A DNA stretch of 64,000 bases from positions 1 to 64,000 of the forward strand of contig NZ_KB899996.1 of NCBI RefSeq assembly GCF_000378505.1, read 5' to 3'. The translations under genes were made by a program, and so were the position numbers. The stretch comes from Modicisalibacter luteus DSM 23508 (GTDB lineage: Bacteria; Pseudomonadota; Gammaproteobacteria; Pseudomonadales; Halomonadaceae). The notes beneath the pieces were generated by a model. That model searched no databases. It was not told the origin of the DNA and saw only the letters and a list, made by a program, of their open reading frames with translations. This document shows, piece after piece, positions 13,194 to 57,323 of this stretch (its first letter is position 1; every line of letters starts with the position of its first letter).

Positions 13194-14081
13194 ATGCCCG
13201 GTTACCGTGGCCGCTTCGCCCCGACGCCTTCCGGCCCCTTGCATTTCGGTTCGCTGATCGCCGCCTTGGCGAGCTTCCTTGATGCCCGGCATGTCGGCGG
13301 TTGCTGGCTAGTACGCATCGAGGACACTGACCCGCCCCGCTGCCCGCCGGGCGCCGATACCCAGATCCTGCGCCAGCTCGAAGCCTTCGGCCTGTATTGG
13401 GACGAGGAGGTGCGCTACCAGAGCACTCGCCATGCCGCCTACCAGAACGCCCTGGACCGGCTGGCGGCACAGAGTCTGGCCTACCCTTGCAGCTGCTCAC
13501 GCAAGCAGTGGCGTGAACATGCCGTTTACCCAGGCTGGTGCCGGGACGGCATCCGCCAGCCCGATCAACCGGTGGCCTGGCGGCTGCGTAGTGACCTCGG
13601 CCTACGCCCGGTGACCTGGCAGGATCGTCTGTTCGATGAACAGACCTTCGACCCGGCCCAGCTTGGCGACGTGGTACTCAAGCGCAAGGACGATCTATGG
13701 GCCTATCAGCTGGCCGTGGTCATCGACGATGCCGACCAGGGCATCAGCGATGTGGTGCGCGGCCATGACCTGCTCGACAATACGCCCTGGCAGCGCCAGC
13801 TGCAGGTTGCCCTCGGGTTGCCCGAGCCCCGCTATCTGCATCTGCCGCTAATCGTGGCCGACAATGGCCAGAAGCTCTCCAAGCAGAACCTGGCCCCGGC
13901 CCTGCCCACCCGCGACGACGCAGTGCGCACCTTACTCCATCAGGCACTGATCGCCCTCGATCAGGCGCCATCTGCCGAACTGGCCAGCGCTCCGGTCGCC
14001 GACCAGCTCGCTGCGGCCACCGCTGCCTGGGACGTCTCGCGTCTGAGGCCCGAAGTCTTCAAAGCCCAACCCCCTACCTAG
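13194..14081 (+). CDS. gluQ: Glutamyl-Q tRNA(Asp) synthetase
   Basis: Truncated GluRS paralogue that attaches glutamate to the queuosine base at position 34 of tRNA-Asp rather than to a 3' end. The 295-residue protein keeps the catalytic half of GluRS with RFAPTPSGPLHFGSL (HIGH variant HFGS) and a KMSKS variant KLSKQN. A zinc-binding CSCSRKQW...YPGWC segment is present, and the anticodon-binding domain is missing, which defines the family. The ATG at 13194 is used because the protein then begins directly with the conserved GRFAPTP strand. It lies between dksA and the cbr genes. Confidence 0.95.
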   Translation: MPGYRGRFAPTPSGPLHFGSLIAALASFLDARHVGGCWLVRIEDTDPPRCPPGADTQILRQLEAFGLYWDEEVRYQSTRHAAYQNALDRLAAQSLAYPCSCSRKQWREHAVYPGWCRDGIRQPDQPVAWRLRSDLGLRPVTWQDRLFDEQTFDPAQLGDVVLKRKDDLWAYQLAVVIDDADQGISDVVRGHDLLDNTPWQRQLQVALGLPEPRYLHLPLIVADNGQKLSKQNLAPALPTRDDAVRTLLHQALIALDQAPSAELASAPVADQLAAATAAWDVSRLRPEVFKAQPPT

Positions 14082-14149: not shown

Positions 14150-14326
14150 ATGTACGTCTATCGCATCATGCTGTTCCTCGTCTTTGGTGGGTATCTGCTG
14201 TCACCCATGCTGATGAACGGCTGGGCATTGCCGGGAACGGCCTGGTATCGCCCCTTTTTGATCTGGGGCGGCCTGATCGCATTGACCGTATGGCTCGAGC
14301 AGAAGAGGAAGCTGGATGAGCACTAG
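14150..14326 (+). CDS. Small membrane protein upstream of cbrA (CbrX-like)
   Basis: 58-residue protein with two predicted transmembrane segments (about residues 6-25 and 36-51), ending in a charged tail [11 protein letters not shown]. Its 3' end overlaps the cbrA start by 11 bases, so cbrA translation is probably coupled to it. In Pseudomonas a small ORF named cbrX occupies the same place and is co-transcribed with cbrA; the assignment rests on position, size and topology rather than recognisable motifs. A GTG at 14144 is an alternative start. No strong ribosome-binding site is seen. Confidence 0.7.
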   Translation: MYVYRIMLFLVFGGYLLSPMLMNGWALPGTAWYRPFLIWGGLIALTVWLEQKRKLDEH

Positions 14327-17273
14327 CCTGGCGGGCCTGCTCGCACTCGGTATCGGTTACCTTGTCTTGCTGATGTGCTGCGCCCAGGCCGTGGAGCGCG
14401 GCTGGATACCGACACGTCTCATTCACCACCCGGCGGTCTACACCCTGGCTCTCGGCGTCTACGCCAGCGCCTGGGCCATCTATGGCAGCGTCGAGTTCGC
14501 CGCCAGTGCAGGCTACGGCTACCTCGCCTACTACCTTGGCGTCGCCGGTGCTTTCCTGCTGGGGCCGGTCATGTTGATGCCTATCCAGCGCATGACTCGC
14601 ACCTACCAGCTGGCCTCGCTGGCCGACCTGTTCGTGTTCCGCTTTCGCAGCCGCTGGGTGGGCACGCTGATCACCTTGGTGACCCTCCTTGCGGTTCTGC
14701 CCTTGCTGGCCCTGCAAATCCAGACCTTGGGCGAGGCAGTGCATCTGCTAACCCAGGCAGCCTCACCGAGCCTGCTGGCCTTGCTGTTCTGCCTCCTCAT
14801 TGCCGGACTCGCCCTGGCCTTCGGGGCGCGTCACACCCACCAACAAGCCCGTCATGACACGCTGATTGCCGTTATTGCCGTGGAGTCTCTGGTTAAACTG
14901 GCCGCCATGCTTACGCTTGGCGGCATCGCGCTTTATGGCATCTTCAACGGTCCGGCAGACCTACAGGCCTGGCTCGATGGGCCCGGTCTAGCCATGCAAG
15001 CCAGGACTGACCAGCTCGACTCGGGGCAGTGGCGCACCCTGCTCCTGCTGTTCTTTGCCGCCGCATTTCTCATGCCACACATGTTTCACATGGTCTTCAT
15101 CGAGACGCCATCACGTCGCGCCCTACTGCAGACCAGTTGGAGCCTGCCGCTCTACCTGCTATTGATGGCTCTGCCCATCCCGCTGATCCTGTGGGGCACG
15201 CAACGCCTGGGCATCGACACCACCACATCGGGCATCGCCTACCTGGCCTTCGCCCTCTCCGAGAGTCCTTGGGTCGACTCCCTGGTCTTCCTGGCTGGGC
15301 TGGCCGCCGCCAGCGGCACCATGATTCTGATCGCCCTGTCGTTGGCCGGGATGATCCTCAATCACGTCGTTCTGATCGCCCACCCACCCGATAACCGCCC
15401 GGATCTGTATCGCTGGTTGTTATGGTTGCGCCGTGCATTGATACTGGCGGTAATCCTGTCCGGCTGGCTGTTCTATCGCACGATCGGTATAAAACATGAC
15501 CTGGCCACCCTGGGCCTGGCAGCCTTCGTCGGCATGGCCCAGTGCCTGCCCGGCATGCTTGCCGTACTCTACTGGCCCGGCGCCAATCGCAAGGGAATGG
15601 TCAGCGGGCTGGCGGTCGGCTGCGCAATTTGGTTGCTCGGCCTGTGGTTACCGCTGTTGGCAGGCTACCCCGCTCTTGTGATCCTTCCTCCGGGCTTGGA
15701 AAGCCTCGAAGGTACGCCTGGCTGGTACGCCATCGCGCTGATCTCGCTGTCCAGCAACATCCTCGTCTTCATCCTGGTATCGTTAATAACCCCAACCTCG
15801 GAAGGCGAGCGTGCGGCGGCGGAAGCTTGCTCGGTAGAGGCAGTAGTCCACCCCAAGCGACATACCCTGGCGGCGAAGAACGGGGAAGACGTCAAGCGCC
15901 ATCTAGCCCAGGCCCTGGGCGCCGACGTTGCCGAACGGGAGGTGACCAACGCCCTCGAGGCGCTCAATCTCTCCCCGCTAGACGGTCGCCCCTACGCGCT
16001 GCGACGCTTACGCGACCGGCTGCAGGCCAACCTGTCAGGCCTGATGGGTCCGGCCGTGGCTCGGGATATCGTCGACCGCTTCCTGCCCTACCAACAGGAT
16101 TATCACGCCACGTCGGACATTCACTTCGTCGAGAGCCGCCTGGAAGCCTACCGCACGCGGCTCACAGGCCTGGCACGAGAGCTCGACGGCTTGCGGCGCT
16201 ATCATCGGCGGACCCTGGCCCAGTTGCCCATTGGCCTGTGTGCCTTTGGCGAGGACCGCGAATTGCTGATGTGGAATGACGCATTGGCCCGGCTTTCGGA
16301 CATCGAAGGCAGTAGCGTGATCGGTGCCCGATGTGAAAGCCTGCCCTCGCCATGGGCCGATCTGCTAGGCCGCATGATCGACTCAGCACACCCGCACCTC
16401 TACAAACGCGCCATCAATCTCACTGGGGAACTGCGTTACCTCAGCCTGCACAAGGCGATGCTGGCGGCGGAGGGCGATGATCGCGGCGGGACAGTGATCC
16501 TCGTGGAAGACCACAGTGAAATGAAATGGCTGGAAGATGAGCTGGTTCACGCCGAACGCCTGGCTTCTATCGGCCGCCTGGCCGCGGGTGTGGCCCATGA
16601 GATCGGTAATCCAATTACCGGTATTTCTTCGCTGGCCCAGAATCTGCGCTACGACACTGACGACCCCGGCCTGCATGAGACTGCGGATCAGATCCAGCAA
16701 CTGACCGAGCGAGTCTCGAGCATTGTCAGCTCACTGGTGGGCTTCGCCCATAGTGGGCGTCACCCGCAGGGCAGCCACACAACCCGGGTCAATCTCCATC
16801 AGCTGTGTGAGGAAGCGTTGCACTTGATCCGGCTGGCACGCTCGGGCCAGGATATTGTCTACAGCAACCGCTGCCCGCCAGAACTTGAGATCGACGGCAA
16901 TGCCCAGCGTCTCGTCCAGGTACTGGTCAACCTGATCGGCAATGCCCGCGATGCCAGCCAGCCTGGAGGACAAGTCGAGATCGACGCCTGGTCGTGCGAA
17001 GAGGGAGTGCGCGTATGTGTCACCGACGACGGGCATGGAATCGATGCTTCGATTCGCGACCATCTTTTCGAACCCTTCACTACCACCAAGGCACCCGGCC
17101 AGGGAACCGGGCTCGGTCTACCTCTGGTCTATAACATTATTCGTGAGCATCATGGCCATATCCAGATCGACTCACCTCCCCCGGACCGCACACACGGTAC
17201 CCGCATCACGGTGTGGCTGCCCCGAACACAACAGGACGGCGAAGACTCCGATGCCCCGGATTTTGATCGTTGA
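14316..17273 (+). CDS. cbrA: Sensor histidine kinase CbrA with SLC5-type transporter domain
   Basis: Large 985-residue membrane sensor. The first about 480 residues are a multi-helix sodium/solute symporter-like (SLC5/SSSF) domain. A linker/STAC-like and PAS region follows (about 580-730), then HisKA with GVAHEIGNP (His761). The HATPase_c domain has N-box [19 protein letters not shown] and [10 protein letters not shown]. CbrA with CbrB controls carbon/nitrogen balance; in Pseudomonas the transporter domain takes up histidine. It overlaps both cbrX-like (11 bases) and cbrB (23 bases), implying one transcript. No disruption is seen. Confidence 0.96.
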
Positions 17274-18630
17274 AGATGAAGCCATCATCCGCACGGCCCT
17301 GCGCCGGCTGCTGGAGCGCCATGACTACCAGATCAGCGAGGCCGGCTCGGTGGCGGAGGCGCTCGAGCACGACCCGCAACGCTTCGACCTGATTATCAGC
17401 GACCTGCGACTGCCCGGCGAAGAAGGAACCGCATTGATCGATGCCGCCACGCCCACGCCGGTGCTGATCATGACCAGCTATGCCAGCATGCGCTCCGCAG
17501 TGGACACACTGAAGCTGGGTGCGGTGGATTATGTCGCCAAACCCTTTGACCATGACGAGTTGCTCGCTACCGTGGCCAAGGTTCTGGAAGCTCATGCGCC
17601 TGCCCGCACACCGGTAGGGCCGGAACCCGCCGACAGCCCACCGCAGGAGATGATTGGGCGCTGCCCAGCCATGCAGGTGGTCTATACCCGCATTCGCAAG
17701 ACGGCCCCGGCGGATGTCACCGTCCTCATACAAGGTGAGTCAGGCACCGGCAAGGAACTCGTCGCCCGCGCCATCCACCGGCAGAGCCGGCGTGCCAAGG
17801 CTCCACTGATCTGCGTCAACTGCGCTGCCATTCCGGAAACGTTGATCGAGTCCGAGCTGTTCGGCCACGAAAAGGGCGCCTTCACGGGCGCCAGCGCCGC
17901 ACGAACCGGCTTGGTGGAAGCGGCCGATGGCGGCACGCTATTCCTGGATGAGATCGGCGAGCTACCCCTCGACGCCCAGGCGCGACTGCTGCGTGTGCTG
18001 CAGGAAGGAGAAATCCGCAAGGTCGGCTCGATCGAGACCCGCCATGTCGATGTCCGCTTGATCGCCGCCACACATCGTGACCTGAACCTGCTCTCCAAGA
18101 GCGGCGAATTTCGCCTCGACCTGTATTACCGCCTGAATGTCATGCAGATCGACCTCCCCCCCCTTCGCGATCGCGAGGACGACGTCCTCGAACTGGCTGA
18201 CGTGCTGCTCGATAGCGCCTGCCGCCGCCATGGCCGCGAGGGGCTCAAGCTGTCGCGTGCCGCCCGCCGCGATATTCGTGACTATCCTTGGCCGGGCAAC
18301 GTACGCGAACTTGAAAATGCTCTCGAGCGCGGGGTGATCCTGGCTGAGGGAAGCCTTATTCACCCGGATGATCTGGGCATCGAACCGGCCACCGGCATGC
18401 ACTCTTCTCCAGCCCAGACATCGACATCGACGCCCAATCCCCAAACGAGCAATGATGACGAGGATCTTTCCCTGGAAGATTATTTCCAGCACTTTGTACT
18501 CGAACATCAGGATCAGATGAGCGAGACCGAACTGGCCCAGAAACTGGGTATTAGTCGTAAATGCCTATGGGAGCGCCGCCAACGCCTGGGTATCCCTCGC
18601 AAGAAGAGTCCGCGCGGTCGCTCCGCCTGA
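17251..18630 (+). CDS. cbrB: Sigma-54-dependent response regulator CbrB
   Basis: 459-residue NtrC-family activator. Its receiver domain has the phosphoacceptor Asp51 (ISDLRLPG). The AAA+ domain has Walker A GESGTGKE (about 162-169) and the sigma-54-contacting GAFTGA loop (209-214), followed by Walker [11 protein letters not shown] Fis-type helix-turn-helix near the C-terminus reads [19 protein letters not shown]. It starts inside the end of cbrA (23-base overlap, different frame). In Pseudomonas CbrB activates the crcZ small RNA immediately downstream; here the next 700 bases hold a matching sigma-54 promoter and motif-rich RNA region. All catalytic residues are present, so it should be functional. 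Confidence 0.96.
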
Positions 18631-18721: not shown

Positions 18722-18772
18722 TGTTACCTTCCCACACAGCGGCCTCCCCAAACTGCACCACTCGGGGTAACA
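18722..18772 (+). promoter_or_regulatory. Paired TGTTACC / GGTAACA half-sites, candidate CbrB enhancer
   Basis: TGTTACC (18722-18728) and its exact inverse GGTAACA (18766-18772) lie about 150 and 100 bases before the predicted sRNA start. This is the usual distance for an upstream activating sequence of an NtrC-family activator. Between them and the promoter is an AT-rich segment (18811-18845) with an IHF-like AATCAA on the minus strand. From memory, CbrB sites in Pseudomonas contain similar TGTTAC/GTAACA elements. Assignment to CbrB is inference. Confidence 0.5.
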
Positions 18773-18845: not shown

Positions 18846-18873
18846 GTGGCACAGCGGGTGCAATATACAACAG
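18846..18873 (+). promoter_or_regulatory. Sigma-54 (-24/-12) promoter
   Basis: TGTGGCACAGCGGGTGCA has the invariant GG (18848-18849) and GC (18860-18861) separated by exactly 10 bases, inside good matches to TGGCAC and TGCA. The expected start is near 18873. It lies downstream of cbrB, which encodes a sigma-54 activator, and directly before the motif-rich RNA region. Confidence 0.75.
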
Positions 18874-19363
18874 TAAGAAAAACAACAACCAGATGCCCAA
18901 GGTCACGAAGAACAACAAGACGTGAACCTGATGAATACCGGTAACAACAACGACAAATACTGGATAGATAATCGCCTGCACTGACACTACAACGACAACT
19001 GTCAAGCCAGGCGAGCCAACTCCAACTAGAACAAGAAGTTGGTCAACCGATAGCTCTATCGGGACGCGACGCTCCGCGCATGAAATCAACAATAACTATA
19101 GGTTTCGTCGGATGAGCACCTTTGGCAACAACGACAACAAGCCGAAGGGAGGCAGACACACTGCCGTCGTGGTTGGATTATTGTTTTGAATACGAGACGG
19201 TCGCACCAGGAAGATCGATAACGACAAGAAGAGTGCTTGCCTGATATATCGGATTGGTGACTGTGGTGCGTATTCAAGGCGATGCGCCATCACGAAGAAG
19301 AAACATCAGCATGGATGCTGAATGATTTGCTTAAAAGGGGAGGCTCACAAGCCTCCCCTTTCT
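18873..19363 (+). ncRNA. crcZ: CrcZ-like Hfq/Crc-sequestering small RNA
   Basis: About 490 nt with no credible ORF but nine clusters of A-rich triplets (AAC, AAG, AAT), all on the plus strand. They lie at 18881-18888, 18908-18919, 18943-18951, 18991-18999, 19030-19038, 19088-19096, 19127-19141, 19220-19231 and 19295-19303. The Pseudomonas CrcZ/CrcY RNAs carry such AAnAAnAA sites and sequester Hfq-Crc, relieving carbon catabolite repression. Position directly after cbrB, the sigma-54 promoter and the terminal hairpin all agree. The gene symbol is given by architecture, not by alignment; primary sequence conservation with Pseudomonas CrcZ was not tested. The number of motifs exceeds the five or six I recall for Pseudomonas. 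Confidence 0.75.
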
Positions 19364-19465: not shown

Positions 19466-20866
19466 ATGCTTAAAGGATTTAGCCGCTTTTTTCACTATTC
19501 CGGTGAAGGTTTGAAGACCCTATTCGGTAACAATCAGGACAGCCGAGGCAACGTGCCGACGCTGAAAATCATTCCTCGACAAGATCATCCGATATCGCGC
19601 CAGATGTTTAGCGATAGCGCGTTGAAGGTGCTCTATCGTCTGCATAATGCAGGTTTCGATGCCTATCTTGTCGGTGGCTGCCTGCGCGATGCCATTCTCG
19701 GCAAGACTCCCAAGGATTTCGACGTGGCGACCGATGCCACGCCCGAGCAGATACGTGATCTGTTTCGCAACTCACGGATCATTGGCCGTCGCTTTCGTAT
19801 CGTGCATGTCCGCTTCGGTCGAGAAATCATCGAAGTCACCACGTTTCGAGGCCGTCCCAACGACGACCATGGCGAACACTTGGCCCAGCAGTCGGAGCAA
19901 GGCCTGCTGCTACGCGACAACGTATGGGGCAATATCGAAGAAGATGCCTTGCGCCGCGACTTTACCGTCAATGCGCTCTACTACAACATTGCCGACTTTT
20001 CACTGCATGACTGGGCCGGCGCAATGGACGACATTGAAAACCGTACCTTGCGCCTAATCGGTGATCCGCAAACACGTTACCGCGAAGACCCGGTACGCAT
20101 GCTGCGCGCTATCCGCTTTGTCGCCAAGCTCGACTTTATCATTGCCCCGGCCACCGAGGCGCCGATCCGCGAGATGGCCCCCTTGCTGCTGCAGATTCCT
20201 CCGGCCCGCCTGTTCGAGGAAGTCCTCAAGCTGTTTCTCTCGGGGTATGCCGTACAGACATTCCATAAGCTGCGTGAATATGGCTTGTTCGCCATGCTCT
20301 TTCCCGAGGCTGAAGAGGCCATGGATGAGCTGCCCTGGGCCAAGGAGCTAATCGTCCAGGCCCTGGCCAATACCGACGCCCGCATTCAGGAAGAGCGCCC
20401 GGTTACTCCAGCCTTCCTGTTTGCCGCTCTGCTCTGGCCCGGTGTTCAGTTACGTTACCAGCGACTGCATGCTGACGGCATGCCCGCGATACCGGCCCAA
20501 CAGACTGCATCGCATCAGGCCGTGTCGCGGCAGCTTCAGCACACTTCCATCCCCAAGCGCTTCAGCCTACCGATGCGCGACATATGGGACCTACAACAGC
20601 GGCTGCCCAAGCGGCGTGGCAAGCGGGCTTTCCAGACCCGAGAGCATCCTCGCTTCCGGGCAGCCTTCGACTTCCTGCTGTTGCGTGAAACCGCTGGCGA
20701 GATTCCCTCGGGATTGGGTGCCTGGTGGGAGGCCTTCCAGCAGGCCGACGAACACGAACAACGCCGCCTGCTGGGCAAGATCGACAGCGATCCGGCCGGG
20801 CAGGCCGATGTACGCAAACGTCGTCCGCGCCGTCGGCGGCGCAAGAATTCCCCCGGCTACGAGTGA
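19466..20866 (+). CDS. pcnB: Poly(A) polymerase I
   Basis: Adds 3' poly(A) tails that mark RNAs, including regulatory RNAs, for decay. The 466-residue protein has the class II nucleotidyltransferase core with VGGCLRDAILG and the catalytic DFDVATDA, followed by the tRNA/PAP head domain (RRDFTVNALYYN, EDPVRMLRAIRF). The tail is very basic (KRRPRRRRRK), typical of PAP I rather than CCA-adding enzyme. The frame stays open to 19322 with another ATG at 19445. The start at 19466 is preferred because it gives E. coli-like length and lies after the predicted promoter. It overlaps folK by 1 base. Confidence 0.93.
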   Translation: MLKGFSRFFHYSGEGLKTLFGNNQDSRGNVPTLKIIPRQDHPISRQMFSDSALKVLYRLHNAGFDAYLVGGCLRDAILGKTPKDFDVATDATPEQIRDLFRNSRIIGRRFRIVHVRFGREIIEVTTFRGRPNDDHGEHLAQQSEQGLLLRDNVWGNIEEDALRRDFTVNALYYNIADFSLHDWAGAMDDIENRTLRLIGDPQTRYREDPVRMLRAIRFVAKLDFIIAPATEAPIREMAPLLLQIPPARLFEEVLKLFLSGYAVQTFHKLREYGLFAMLFPEAEEAMDELPWAKELIVQALANTDARIQEERPVTPAFLFAALLWPGVQLRYQRLHADGMPAIPAQQTASHQAVSRQLQHTSIPKRFSLPMRDIWDLQQRLPKRRGKRAFQTREHPRFRAAFDFLLLRETAGEIPSGLGAWWEAFQQADEHEQRRLLGKIDSDPAGQADVRKRRPRRRRRKNSPGYE

Positions 20867-27301: not shown

Positions 27302-27571
27302 TTAGCGACGCAGGCCCAAGCGCTGGATCAGCGACTGGTAGCGCTCGAGGTCCTTGCGCTTGAGGTAGTCGAGCAGCTTGCGGCGCTGGTTGACCATGCG
27401 AATCAGGCCACGACGGGAGTGGTGATCCTGCTTGTTGGTCTTGAAGTGATCCTGCAGGCCGTCGATATTGGCGCTCAGCAGGGCGACCTGAACTTCGGGG
27501 GAACCGGTGTCGTTATCACCACGACCGTATTCCTGGACGATTTCAGCCTTTTTCTCAGCAGTCAGTGCCAT
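27302..27571 (-). CDS. rpsO: 30S ribosomal protein S15
   Basis: Primary 16S rRNA-binding protein of the small subunit platform. The 89-residue protein matches the universal length, with the conserved [19 protein letters not shown] and RRKLLDYLK blocks. GGAG precedes the ATG. The 99-base gap behind truB holds hairpins that may be an S15 autoregulatory site. It is the penultimate gene of the rimP-nusA-infB-rbfA-truB-rpsO-pnp cluster. Confidence 0.98.
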
Positions 27572-27611
27572 CTGTTTCTCCAGTAAGCAATATGCCTAAA
27601 CGATGAATGTC

Positions 27612-27661
27612 GGAGACCACGCATATTTGCAGTCTCCATGGGTCGGCCACCAATCGGTGGC
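27612..27661 (-). promoter_or_regulatory. rpsO leader hairpins, possible S15 autoregulatory site
   Basis: In the minus-strand leader a stem GCCACC/GGTGGC (27661-27646) is followed by a longer stem GGAGAC...GTCTCC with an inner GCA/TGC pairing (27637-27612), ending 40 bases before the rpsO start. S15 represses its own mRNA in many bacteria through varied leader folds. These hairpins could be such a site or simply a weak terminator of truB. Confidence 0.35.
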
Positions 27662-33759: not shown

Positions 33760-33836
<77 letters not shown>

Positions 33837-33945: not shown

Positions 33946-34032
33946 TGGTGCCGAAGGGGGGACTTGAACCCCCACGACCATAAGGTCACTACCCCCTCAA
34001 GATAGCGTGTCTACCAATTCCACCACTTCGGC
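33946..34032 (-). tRNA. tRNA-Leu (GAG)
   Basis: An 87-base tRNA with a long variable arm (class II), anticodon loop TTGAGGG and anticodon GAG, T-loop GGTTCAAGTCC, and encoded CCA. It closely resembles E. coli leuU, which also lies just after secG. The acceptor stem GCCGAAG/CTTCGGC is fully paired. Confidence 0.95.
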
Positions 34033-44710: not shown

Positions 44711-45856
44711 TCAGCGCCGTTCCTTCATCATCCGCACGAAGCGATCGAACAGCGGCGACACGTCGCGTGGTCCCGGGCTCGCCTCGGGATGGCCCTGGAA
44801 GCTGAATGCCGGGCGATCGGTACGTTCGATGCCCTGCAGGGTGCCGTCGAACAATGAGCGATGCGTAGCACGCAAGTTCGGCGGTAGACTGGTCTCGTCG
44901 GCAGAAAAGCCATGGTTCTGGCTGGTGATCATGACGTGGCCAGTATCCAGATCCAGGACCGGGTGGTTGGCACCATGGTGGCCGTGGTTCATCTTTACTG
45001 TCTTGGCGCCGGAGGCCAGCGCCAATAGCTGATGCCCCAGGCAGATGCCGAAGGTCGGTGTGTCGGTGTCGATGATTTCGCGGATTGCCTCGATGGCGTA
45101 GTCGCAAGGCGCGGGGTCGCCCGGACCGTTGGCCAGCAGCACGCCGTCGGGGCTCATCGCCAGCACCTCGCTGGCCGGGGTCTGTGCCGGCACCACGGTC
45201 AGGCGACAGCCCCGCTCGGCCAGCATGCGCAGGATGTTGTATTTGACGCCATAGTCGTAGACCACGACATGGTATGGCCGCTCACCAGTGGTGGCATCGG
45301 CGTAGCCGTTGCCCAGCGCCCACTCGCCCTGGCTCCATTCGTAGACCTCTTTGCAGGAGACTTCCTTGGCCAGGTCCATGCCCTTGAGACCGGGGAACTC
45401 GCGGGCCACGGCCAGCGCGCGCTCGACCGCATCGTCGCCTTCGGCCTCGGGGCCTGCCAGGATCGCCCCGTTCTGGGCGCCCTTGTCACGCAGGATACGC
45501 GTCAGGCGGCGCGTGTCGATGTCAGCAATGCCGAGAATGTTCTGGCTCTTCAGGTAGGCATCCAGCGTCTGTTCGCTACGGAAGCTGCTGGCCAGTAACG
45601 GCAGGTCGCGAATCACCAGTCCGGCTACGTAGATTCGGTCGGACTCGACGTCTTCGATGTTCACCCCGGTGTTACCGATATGCGGATAAGTCAGGGTAAC
45701 GATCTGGCGCGCATAGGAGGGGTCGGTAAGGATTTCCTGGTAGCCGGTCATGGCCGTATTGAACACCACCTCACCGCTGGTCTGTCCATCGGCGCCGATG
45801 GCGCTGCCATGAAATACGCTGCCATCTTCCAAGGCCAGTATTGCGGGTCTGTTCAA
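44711..45856 (-). CDS. carA: Carbamoyl-phosphate synthase small (glutamine amidotransferase) subunit
   Basis: Hydrolyses glutamine and channels ammonia to CarB. The 381-residue protein has the N-terminal CarA domain ([24 protein letters not shown]). The class I amidotransferase domain carries the nucleophile in [11 protein letters not shown] and the catalytic His/Glu in [11 protein letters not shown]. The best start is TTG at 45856: it has GGAGGA 7 bases upstream and gives E. coli-like length. An upstream GTG overlaps that ribosome-binding site, and the frame open to 46015 runs through a terminator hairpin. Confidence 0.95.
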
Positions 45857-45888
45857 CGCAACGTCCTCCACTGCTTTTCGTAAGACTG

Positions 45889-45916
45889 GATGCAGCCCGC
45901 CGTCGCCGGGCTGCCG
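45889..45916 (-). promoter_or_regulatory. carA leader hairpin
   Basis: In the minus-strand leader of carA, GGCAGCCCG and CGGGCTGC form a stem around GCGACGG, about 35 bases before the ribosome-binding site. A promoter is not clear; CATACA near 45929 is one possible -10. In related bacteria carAB leaders respond to pyrimidines or arginine, but nothing here proves such control. Confidence 0.3.
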
Positions 45917-45974
45917 AAAGGGCCTTCTGTATGATGGACCTGACGAAACGTCGGATTCGTCATACGCGCAGGTC

Positions 45975-46024
45975 GTAAAAAAGCGGGACGAAACCTGAAA
46001 AAAGACCGGTTTCATCCCGCTTGT
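45975..46024 (-). terminator. Terminator between dapB and carA
   Basis: On the minus strand AAGCGGGATGAAACC pairs with GGTTTCGTCCCGCTT (15 pairs, one G-U wobble) around a T-rich loop, followed by TTTT. The wobble pair exists only in the minus-strand RNA, while the plus strand would have a C-A mismatch. The hairpin therefore acts toward carA, ending dapB transcripts. Confidence 0.8.
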
Positions 46025-56942: not shown

Positions 56943-57323
56943 GGGGGCGACATGGCTTCGACGCCGATGACAACCTCCTAGGTGCATGCCGAGAGCGTGA
57001 TGTATCTCGTAAATCCAACATCACAATTAAATAGTCGCAAACGACGAAAACTACGCTCAGGGCGCTCTGGCAGCTTAAAAACTGCTGGTAGTTAGCCTGG
57101 CCCCAAAGCGATGTGCCTATCCATCGTGGAGGGGAGATGAGCTAAAGCTGATAGGATCGCGGTTGACGGCGCCTTCCCGTTAACCGTTAACACTTAGAAG
57201 GATCGCGGTATGGAATCCTGCCCGTCGGAGTTCATGCCGTTAAATCAAAAGACGGACCTAAGCATGTAGAGCCGAAGAGCGCGTGTCGGCGGACGCGGGT
57301 TCAATTCCCGCCGCCTCCACCAG
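56943..57323 (+). ncRNA. ssrA: Transfer-messenger RNA (tmRNA)
   Basis: 381-nt one-piece tmRNA for ribosome rescue. The 5' acceptor strand GGGGGCG pairs with CGCCTCC before an encoded ACCA 3' end. The T-arm GGGTTCAATTCCC and the 5' GACATGGCTTCGACG block are canonical. The tag reading frame at 57037-57078 (GCA resume codon to TAA) encodes ANDENYAQGALAA, which ends in the ALAA-type degradation signal and is three residues longer than the E. coli-type tag through the extra QGA. It lies directly after smpB. Confidence 0.97.

Follow-up and report, generated by a model that had tools for sequence, protein, structure and literature searches.

Does the gap between cbrB and pcnB encode an RNA of the CrcZ type, and if so, how closely does it resemble the CrcZ known from Pseudomonas? 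A first-pass annotation of the window (the whole stretch of 64,000 nucleotides analysed here) had proposed an Hfq/Crc decoy RNA in this gap. The genes and putative sites that bear on the proposal, apart from the 3' end of the RNA, are as follows:

13194..14081, + strand: gluQ, tRNA glutamyl-Q synthetase, the upstream neighbour (NCBIfam GluQRS above cut-off)
14316..17273, + strand: cbrA, sensor histidine kinase (HisKA and HATPase_c domains)
17251..18630, + strand: cbrB, sigma-54-dependent response regulator (Response_reg and Sigma54_activat domains)
18722..18727, + strand: CbrB subsite F1, TGTTAC (exact match to the published subsite)
18767..18772, + strand: CbrB subsite R2, GTAACA (exact match to the published subsite)
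18847..18862, + strand: putative sigma-54 -24/-12 box TGGCACAGCGGGTGCA, TGGCAC-N6-TGCA, GG-N10-GC (10 of 12 consensus positions)
18873..19363, + strand: predicted CrcZ-type RNA (A-rich array, fold stability, comparison of 47 such RNAs, window included)
18872..19305, + strand: nine A-rich (ARN-repeat) clusters, proposed Hfq distal-face sites (motif scan, unpaired probability)
19466..20866, + strand: pcnB, poly(A) polymerase (TIGR01942 above cut-off)

The gap between cbrB and pcnB

The candidate RNA lies in a gap bounded by the cbrB stop at 18630 and by pcnB, which begins at about 19466. The CrcZ-like position claimed for it was borne out: the gene order, gluQ-cbrA-cbrB-RNA-pcnB, is a layout common to Pseudomonas fildesensis. 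The window CbrB is 64% identical to the product of the P. fildesensis gene that precedes an Rfam-confirmed CrcZ, and it matched no NCBIfam family over cut-off among the matches listed (25 families). CbrA shares 49% identity over 977 residues with the product of the gene upstream of P. fildesensis cbrB, and 73% with its Halomonas maura counterpart; no Pfam match to an SLC5/SSF transporter domain was found in it, even at E 10. A Halomonas-type host had also been suggested, and of the 80 loci kept, the closest one from a named relative is indeed that of H. maura (80% in CbrB), which is why we call the window's family Halomonadaceae.

On the + strand, no ORF of at least 60 amino acids touches the gap besides a listed pcnB ORF from 19322, a mechanical start that falls inside the RNA. 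The - strand holds three ORFs of 85, 63, and 65 amino acids; in an alignment of 39 loci, counting the window, their frames are open and in phase in only 3, 4, and 4. Where relatives were inspected (7 RNAs), some had + strand ORFs as long as 88 amino acids, at positions that do not correspond. With a mis-started pcnB on one strand and poorly kept frames on the other, we agree with the earlier statement that the gap contains no credible gene. Elsewhere in the window, Rfam identifies ordinary RNAs, namely an S15 leader (27515-27640, - strand), a tmRNA (56943-57322, + strand), and two tRNAs (33763-33836 and 33949-34032, - strand).

The strict motif AANAANAA has nine overlapping matches on the + strand of the RNA, which make up six clusters, and one match on the - strand. 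When one wrong A is allowed, the six strict clusters are joined by three with one mismatch, at positions of about 18872, 18905, 18943, 18991, 19024, 19085, 19127, 19220, and 19292 in all, so the nine one-strand clusters of the first-pass annotation hold. In 5000 dinucleotide shuffles of 18873-19363 the mean was 0.54 clusters and the maximum 3, and none reached 6. When 1271 overlapping 491-nt segments per strand (step 50) were ranked, the RNA site was the richest, with 6 clusters; the best segments elsewhere in the window, within lists of the top 12, had 3 on the + strand and 1 on the - strand. Fold stability relative to shuffles was z -5.3 on the + strand and -3.8 on the - strand. The corresponding RNAs of the family span 432-552 nt and carry 6-9 strict clusters each (47 RNAs, 362 clusters), with a median centre-to-centre spacing of 45 nt. 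Strict clusters have a mean predicted unpaired probability of 0.90 vs 0.35 for the remainder of the 47 RNAs, and 235 of the 362 fall in predicted hairpin loops. Because A-rich 8-mers in shuffles of three of the RNAs reach 0.71-0.73, part of this effect is due to composition.

A promoter of the expected kind is predicted upstream. Counting 12 nt from the C of GC in the box at 18847-18862, the rule for sigma-54 starts, gives a predicted start at 18873, the same start as had been assigned to the RNA beforehand. The box scores 10 against the sigma-54 consensus, and since shuffled versions of the gap attain 10 in 111 of 2000 cases (and 9 in 478 of 2000), the case for it rests on conservation. The best sigma-54 score in 39 Halomonadaceae gaps was 9 in four, 10 in 25, and 11 in ten; scores of at least 10 thus occur in 35 of 39 gaps vs 95 of 1950 shuffles. 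The first A-rich cluster begins 1-2 nt past the predicted start in 41 of the 47 RNAs. Consensus sigma-70 and terminator scans gave nothing useful for a + strand RNA.

The CbrB consensus appears in passages of a 2022 review as TGTTAC-N12-14-GTAACA-N15-19-GTAACA (PMC8871633); set against this triple, F1 and R2 are present in the window and the middle subsite, R1, is degenerate. Exact F and R subsites were found at all 39 loci with both CbrB and the RNA (the window, 37 relatives, and H. maura, L041), with F at -126 to -124 and R at -81 to -79 from the box in 36 of these; as the loci are related, they do not amount to 39 independent tests. Neither the sigma-54 box, nor the CbrB subsites, nor the conserved 3' stem described below had figured in the first-pass annotation.

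We consider it quite probable, judging from sequence comparison, that this locus encodes an Hfq/Crc decoy of the CrcZ type, which CbrB and RpoN drive and to which a family-specific module has been added.

The 3' domain

The added module lies in the 3' part of the RNA, which in 47 RNAs (39 with CbrB, 8 without) comprises three helices, a GGA-loop hairpin, and a terminator-like hairpin:

19169..19293, + strand: conserved 3' domain (pair counts, 15-mer conservation, model matches)
19169-19176/19287-19293, + strand: helix 1 (pair counts)
19180-19194/19269-19283, + strand: helix 2, 15 pairs (pair counts, 15-mer)
19197-19203/19258-19264, + strand: helix 3 (pair counts)
19306..19321, + strand: helix 4, hairpin with GGA in the loop, putative CsrA/RsmA-type ANGGAN (pair counts, fold)
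19337..19363, + strand: helix 5, terminator-like hairpin (19337-19358) and short U tail (pairs)

In an alignment of these RNAs (A2), the 42 pairs of the structure were formed in 94.5% of 1949 cells vs 39-54% in slid versions, a comparison that favours the structure because it was derived from the same 47 sequences. Nineteen pairs changed on both sides (shuffle mean 7.7; none of 500 shuffles reached 19), and 59 cells showed both-side changes vs a shuffle mean of 18.3; the covariation measures exceeded all 500 shuffles, which take no account of relatedness. In helix 5, 7 of 8 pairs have changes on both sides. The strong terminator hairpin of the first-pass annotation is real and covaries, but it is followed by only a short U tract (UUUCU) and is absent from the output of the terminator scan. 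The rule for placing terminators failed in 5 of the 47 RNAs, whose ends were set by a sequence landmark.

Helix 2 is nearly invariant. Nine of its pairs never vary and none changed on both sides, so the case for this helix rests on complementarity. Three pairs are U-G in 43-46 of the 47 RNAs; on the other strand these would be A-C, which points to the + strand as the RNA. One pair is U-G instead of U-A in 16 of 47 RNAs, through a change in the 3' arm, and a single RNA of the 47 departs in its 5' arm; conservation of the 5' arm beyond what pairing demands suggests that it has a partner. The helix 2 15-mer, ATTGTTTTGAATACG, occurs exactly in 265 of 275 family genomes (genome-wide, with sites listed in part; three genomes have two), and its reversed control gave 0 among the matches listed. 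In 29 order-level genomes the 15-mer had no exact match, and one-mismatch matches numbered 19 vs 10 for the reversed control. Of 15 genomes searched with a model built from 28 of the 47 RNAs (R1), scoring 150 candidates in each, six, all members of the family, gave a single match apiece, and G030, G031, G036, and six genomes from other families gave none. R1 also gave nothing below E 0.5 at 41 loci that either lie outside the family or lack the 15-mer.

Such conservation raises the alternative that the RNA is at heart a structured regulator, in which the 3' domain does the main work by base pairing or protein binding and the A-rich clusters are ordinary Hfq landing sites. The exact 15-base arm and the excess conservation of its 5' strand speak for this. 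Against it, the clusters keep their number, their strand bias, and their unpaired state throughout the 47 RNAs, and two family genomes, G030 and G031, do without the stem yet have A-rich clusters upstream of pcnB. We regard this alternative as unlikely and prefer the decoy reading; within it, the 3' stem would probably make the RNA more stable or give it a second partner.

The GGA-loop hairpin invites a further comparison. Its loop contains ANGGAN, a CsrA/RsmA-type motif, and the minimum-energy fold narrows the loop to UGGA. ANGGAN hairpins are found in 35 of the 47 RNAs, at a mean of 0.79 per RNA vs 0.10 per RNA in shuffles, and the window RNA has one; the hairpin may connect the Csr system with the Crc system. 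It could even be proposed that the RNA is an RsmZ-like sponge for CsrA/RsmA, which replaces or supplements an Hfq role, and the PrrB/RsmZ model (RF00166) does give a sub-threshold match of 16.3 bits vs a gathering score of 44. Known CsrA sponges carry several GGA hairpins each, however, and with fewer than one per RNA on average a sponge of this kind is very improbable here. The protein-titrating logic of RsmZ and CsrB is shared with the proposed decoy, as is the single ANGGAN hairpin; unlike in those RNAs, the main repeats are A-rich Hfq motifs rather than GGA hairpins.

Relationship to CrcZ and distribution among relatives

The Rfam CrcZ covariance model, which the first-pass annotation had named as a check, did not recognise the RNA: the score was 14.1 bits (E 0.26) vs a gathering score of 95, and the RNA is therefore not filed under RF01675. 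Lowering the Rfam bar to make it a member was rejected. An Rfam search over the whole window and a relaxed-threshold search over the gap returned no accepted RNA family at the RNA site. Among 20 relatives, RF01675 passes in P. fildesensis (L039, 349.6), Serpens gallinarum (L044, 272.1), and L157 (306.8), and it fails in 17 others, including H. maura and two Gilvimarinus. In P. fildesensis, Rfam also places a P36 sRNA match between cbrB and crcZ (L039, 5474-5534).

In other respects the RNA resembles CrcZ (RF01675; Pseudomonas, Azotobacter). It lies directly downstream of cbrB, behind a predicted sigma-54 promoter with exact F1 and R2 subsites; it has several A-rich motifs suited to the distal face of Hfq (six strict predicted sites, or nine when one mismatch is allowed); and crc, hfq, and rpoN are present in the same genome. 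It differs from CrcZ in missing the Rfam model, in its length, in the degenerate middle CbrB subsite, and in the covarying 3' stem. The P. aeruginosa CrcZ is described, in passages of one report, as 407 nt long with six A-rich stretches (PMC4063720). At about 490 nt the RNA is longer than this, as had been claimed. The claim that it is also richer in motifs stands for the nine clusters counted with a mismatch, but the strict count of six equals that of P. aeruginosa, under counting rules that differ. The proposed mechanism is also that of CrcY and CrcX, paralogous RNAs found in P. putida and P. syringae; a single copy was detected here, in G000 (one similarity match, and one model match with 150 of 1278 candidates scored). 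We conclude that the RNA is CrcZ-like by position, predicted promoter, motifs, and partners, and that synteny makes common descent likely, though short of proof from the sequence. Two points appear to be new, namely the mismatch to the Rfam CrcZ model and a covarying 3' stem that was not found in Pseudomonas loci.

CbrB was searched in 78 genomes, and within the family was called present at 508 bits or more and absent when the best match, to paralogues, reached at most 330 bits. It is present in 39 of 49 family genomes and absent from 10, and in 38 of the 39 a box and array lie between cbrB and pcnB. We also compared the stretches that follow cbrB in 65 other genomes with an orthologue (38 from the family, 27 from the order) and at 8 of the 80 kept loci, those with at least 60% identity, looking for a sigma-54 box of at least 9/12 followed by at least three clusters within 480 nt. 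This layout was found at 39 of 40 Halomonadaceae loci (window, L118-L155, and L041), with clusters beating shuffles in all 39 (at most 2 of 200). Outside the family, 17 of 27 order-level loci and 5 of 7 named loci had it, and the clusters exceeded shuffles at 10 of the 27 and 5 of the 7, respectively; the box chosen was the one with the most clusters after it, a rule that favours matches, and the failures at L156, L176, and L040 run into a contig end. The layout, as predicted here, is thus wider than the Pseudomonadaceae, with weaker evidence outside the Halomonadaceae. G036 (L150, L193) encodes a CbrB orthologue and Crc, yet lacks an A-rich array both downstream of cbrB and upstream of pcnB; its CbrB match has one in-frame stop. 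In G014 (L037, 449-2856), cbrB directly follows gluQ, cbrA is missing, and no full-length CbrA match exists genome-wide; this orphan cbrB has retained the CbrB subsites and the downstream RNA, and G014 is an intermediate state.

The ten CbrB-less genomes (G016, G020, G022, G028, G029, G030, G031, G039, G043, and G048) belong to seven genera. Their best CbrA matches are partial, at 31-36%, to a longer protein, and all ten encode Crc. A full RNA, comprising the A-rich clusters and the 3' stem behind a sigma-54 box, is predicted upstream of pcnB in 8 of the 10, from five genera (L183-L189, L191). By eye, a GluQ-like ORF lies upstream at the three CbrB-less loci with ORFs listed, and the one at L188 proved to encode a class I tRNA synthetase. 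None of the nine CbrB-less loci with a placeable promoter (G031, with no clear promoter, is excluded) has the exact pair of CbrB subsites, and a lone TGTTAC is found elsewhere in two of the nine. The predicted subsite pair therefore disappears along with CbrB, and the box and RNA stay. As the RNA is complete in most of these genomes, its role goes beyond CbrAB. The ten genomes appear to have lost CbrAB, rather than never having had it. A takeover by NtrC was considered and found unsupported: GCACCA, from the NtrC consensus, is upstream at 9 of 9 CbrB-less loci but also at 29 of 39 CbrB-bearing loci.

Persistence upstream of pcnB, on the same strand, even where cbrAB is missing could mean that the sequence is a long pcnB leader or attenuator instead of a separate RNA. 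This would sit poorly with the conserved terminator-like hairpin, which closes the RNA about 100 nt before pcnB, and with the separate RNA that occupies the same position in the known system, so that we think it slightly less probable still than the CsrA sponge. Chance A-richness of a non-functional spacer is scarcely credible given the cluster shuffles, the covariation (with its control blind to relatedness), and conservation across the family.

With the CrcZ-type decoy as the preferred reading, we tentatively suggest an elaboration of it, at somewhat below even odds: the RNA may be a two-part regulator, a decoy joined to a 3' stem module (with the CsrA-type hairpin beside it) that senses or controls something else, and in the five CbrAB-less genera (and, for the clusters alone, in two more) it may have been rewired to another sigma-54 activator or signal.

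Protein partners, proposed mechanism, and significance

A search for crc and hfq had also been named as a check. The 4.53-Mb genome of the window has one Hfq match, one RpoN match, and five PF03372 proteins. One of the latter, L005 (1447-2211, - strand), is Crc-like: its best match is to solved Crc structures (4jg3, E 3.3e-77), and it shares 48% identity with P. aeruginosa Crc and 29% with XthA of the same genome. The nuclease motifs of XthA are gone from it (GDFN is GTWH, QETK is QNLK). NCBIfam labels this homologue exodeoxyribonuclease III over cut-off, a likely source of wrong annotation. Its neighbours encode an RNase PH protein and a phosphoribosyltransferase resembling PyrE, as in Pseudomonas. 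Among the Crc residues examined in passages of one study, R140, E142, E193, R196, R229, and R230 are kept, and K155, M156, F231, and R233 are changed (PMC6422490). Crc was found in 49 of 49 same-family genomes. Over residues 1-77, Hfq is close to PDB 1u1s, the P. aeruginosa protein, with Y25 replaced by F25. In P. aeruginosa Hfq, according to passages of one report, Y25D causes defective binding of a CrcZ fragment (PMC4063720).

These parts suggest how the RNA might work. When the preferred carbon source is scarce, CbrA would activate CbrB, which with RpoN would transcribe the RNA. Each A-rich cluster would bind the distal face of one Hfq hexamer, and Crc would join the complex. The RNA would thereby draw Hfq and Crc off the A-rich ribosome-binding sites of catabolic mRNAs, and carbon catabolite repression would be relieved. 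From the sequences we infer transcription of the RNA, its start and end, its binding by Hfq and Crc, the relief of catabolite repression, and a role for the 3' stem. Among 47 crude window ORFs, three had the motif near the start (the mis-started pcnB, a 155-codon ORF, and a carA-like ORF at 44711-46015, - strand), and none was a convincing target mRNA. In the carA-like ORF, AACAACAA precedes the listed start, which is closely followed by a hairpin with a T run; this start, well before the first domain, is probably too far upstream.

Passages of the 2022 review call CbrAB unique to Pseudomonadaceae and describe the cbrA-cbrB-crcZ order only in Pseudomonas and Azotobacter (PMC8871633), and the abstract of another report has "exclusive of the Pseudomonads" (PMC6296734); passages of a preprint deal with CbrA in Pseudomonas (PMC13022988). 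The predicted CbrA and CbrB proteins of the Halomonadaceae genomes contradict this exclusivity. No report of a CrcZ-type RNA in Halomonadaceae was found among the matches listed, in a literature whose subscription papers mostly fell outside coverage, and the passages seen of PMC9049629, PMC5073097, and PMC7918813 describe none. The first-pass claim of a CrcZ-type decoy circuit outside the known genera fits with the position, motifs, box, subsites, Hfq, RpoN, and Crc.

The conserved 3' stem would represent an RNA domain without a known partner, and the CbrAB-less genera that keep the RNA would offer a natural experiment on other ways of driving a decoy of this kind. If the proposal is true, the carbon-repression decoy is much older, and spans a family of halophiles, some of which have been engineered for bioplastics (titles in the reference list of PMC9049629).
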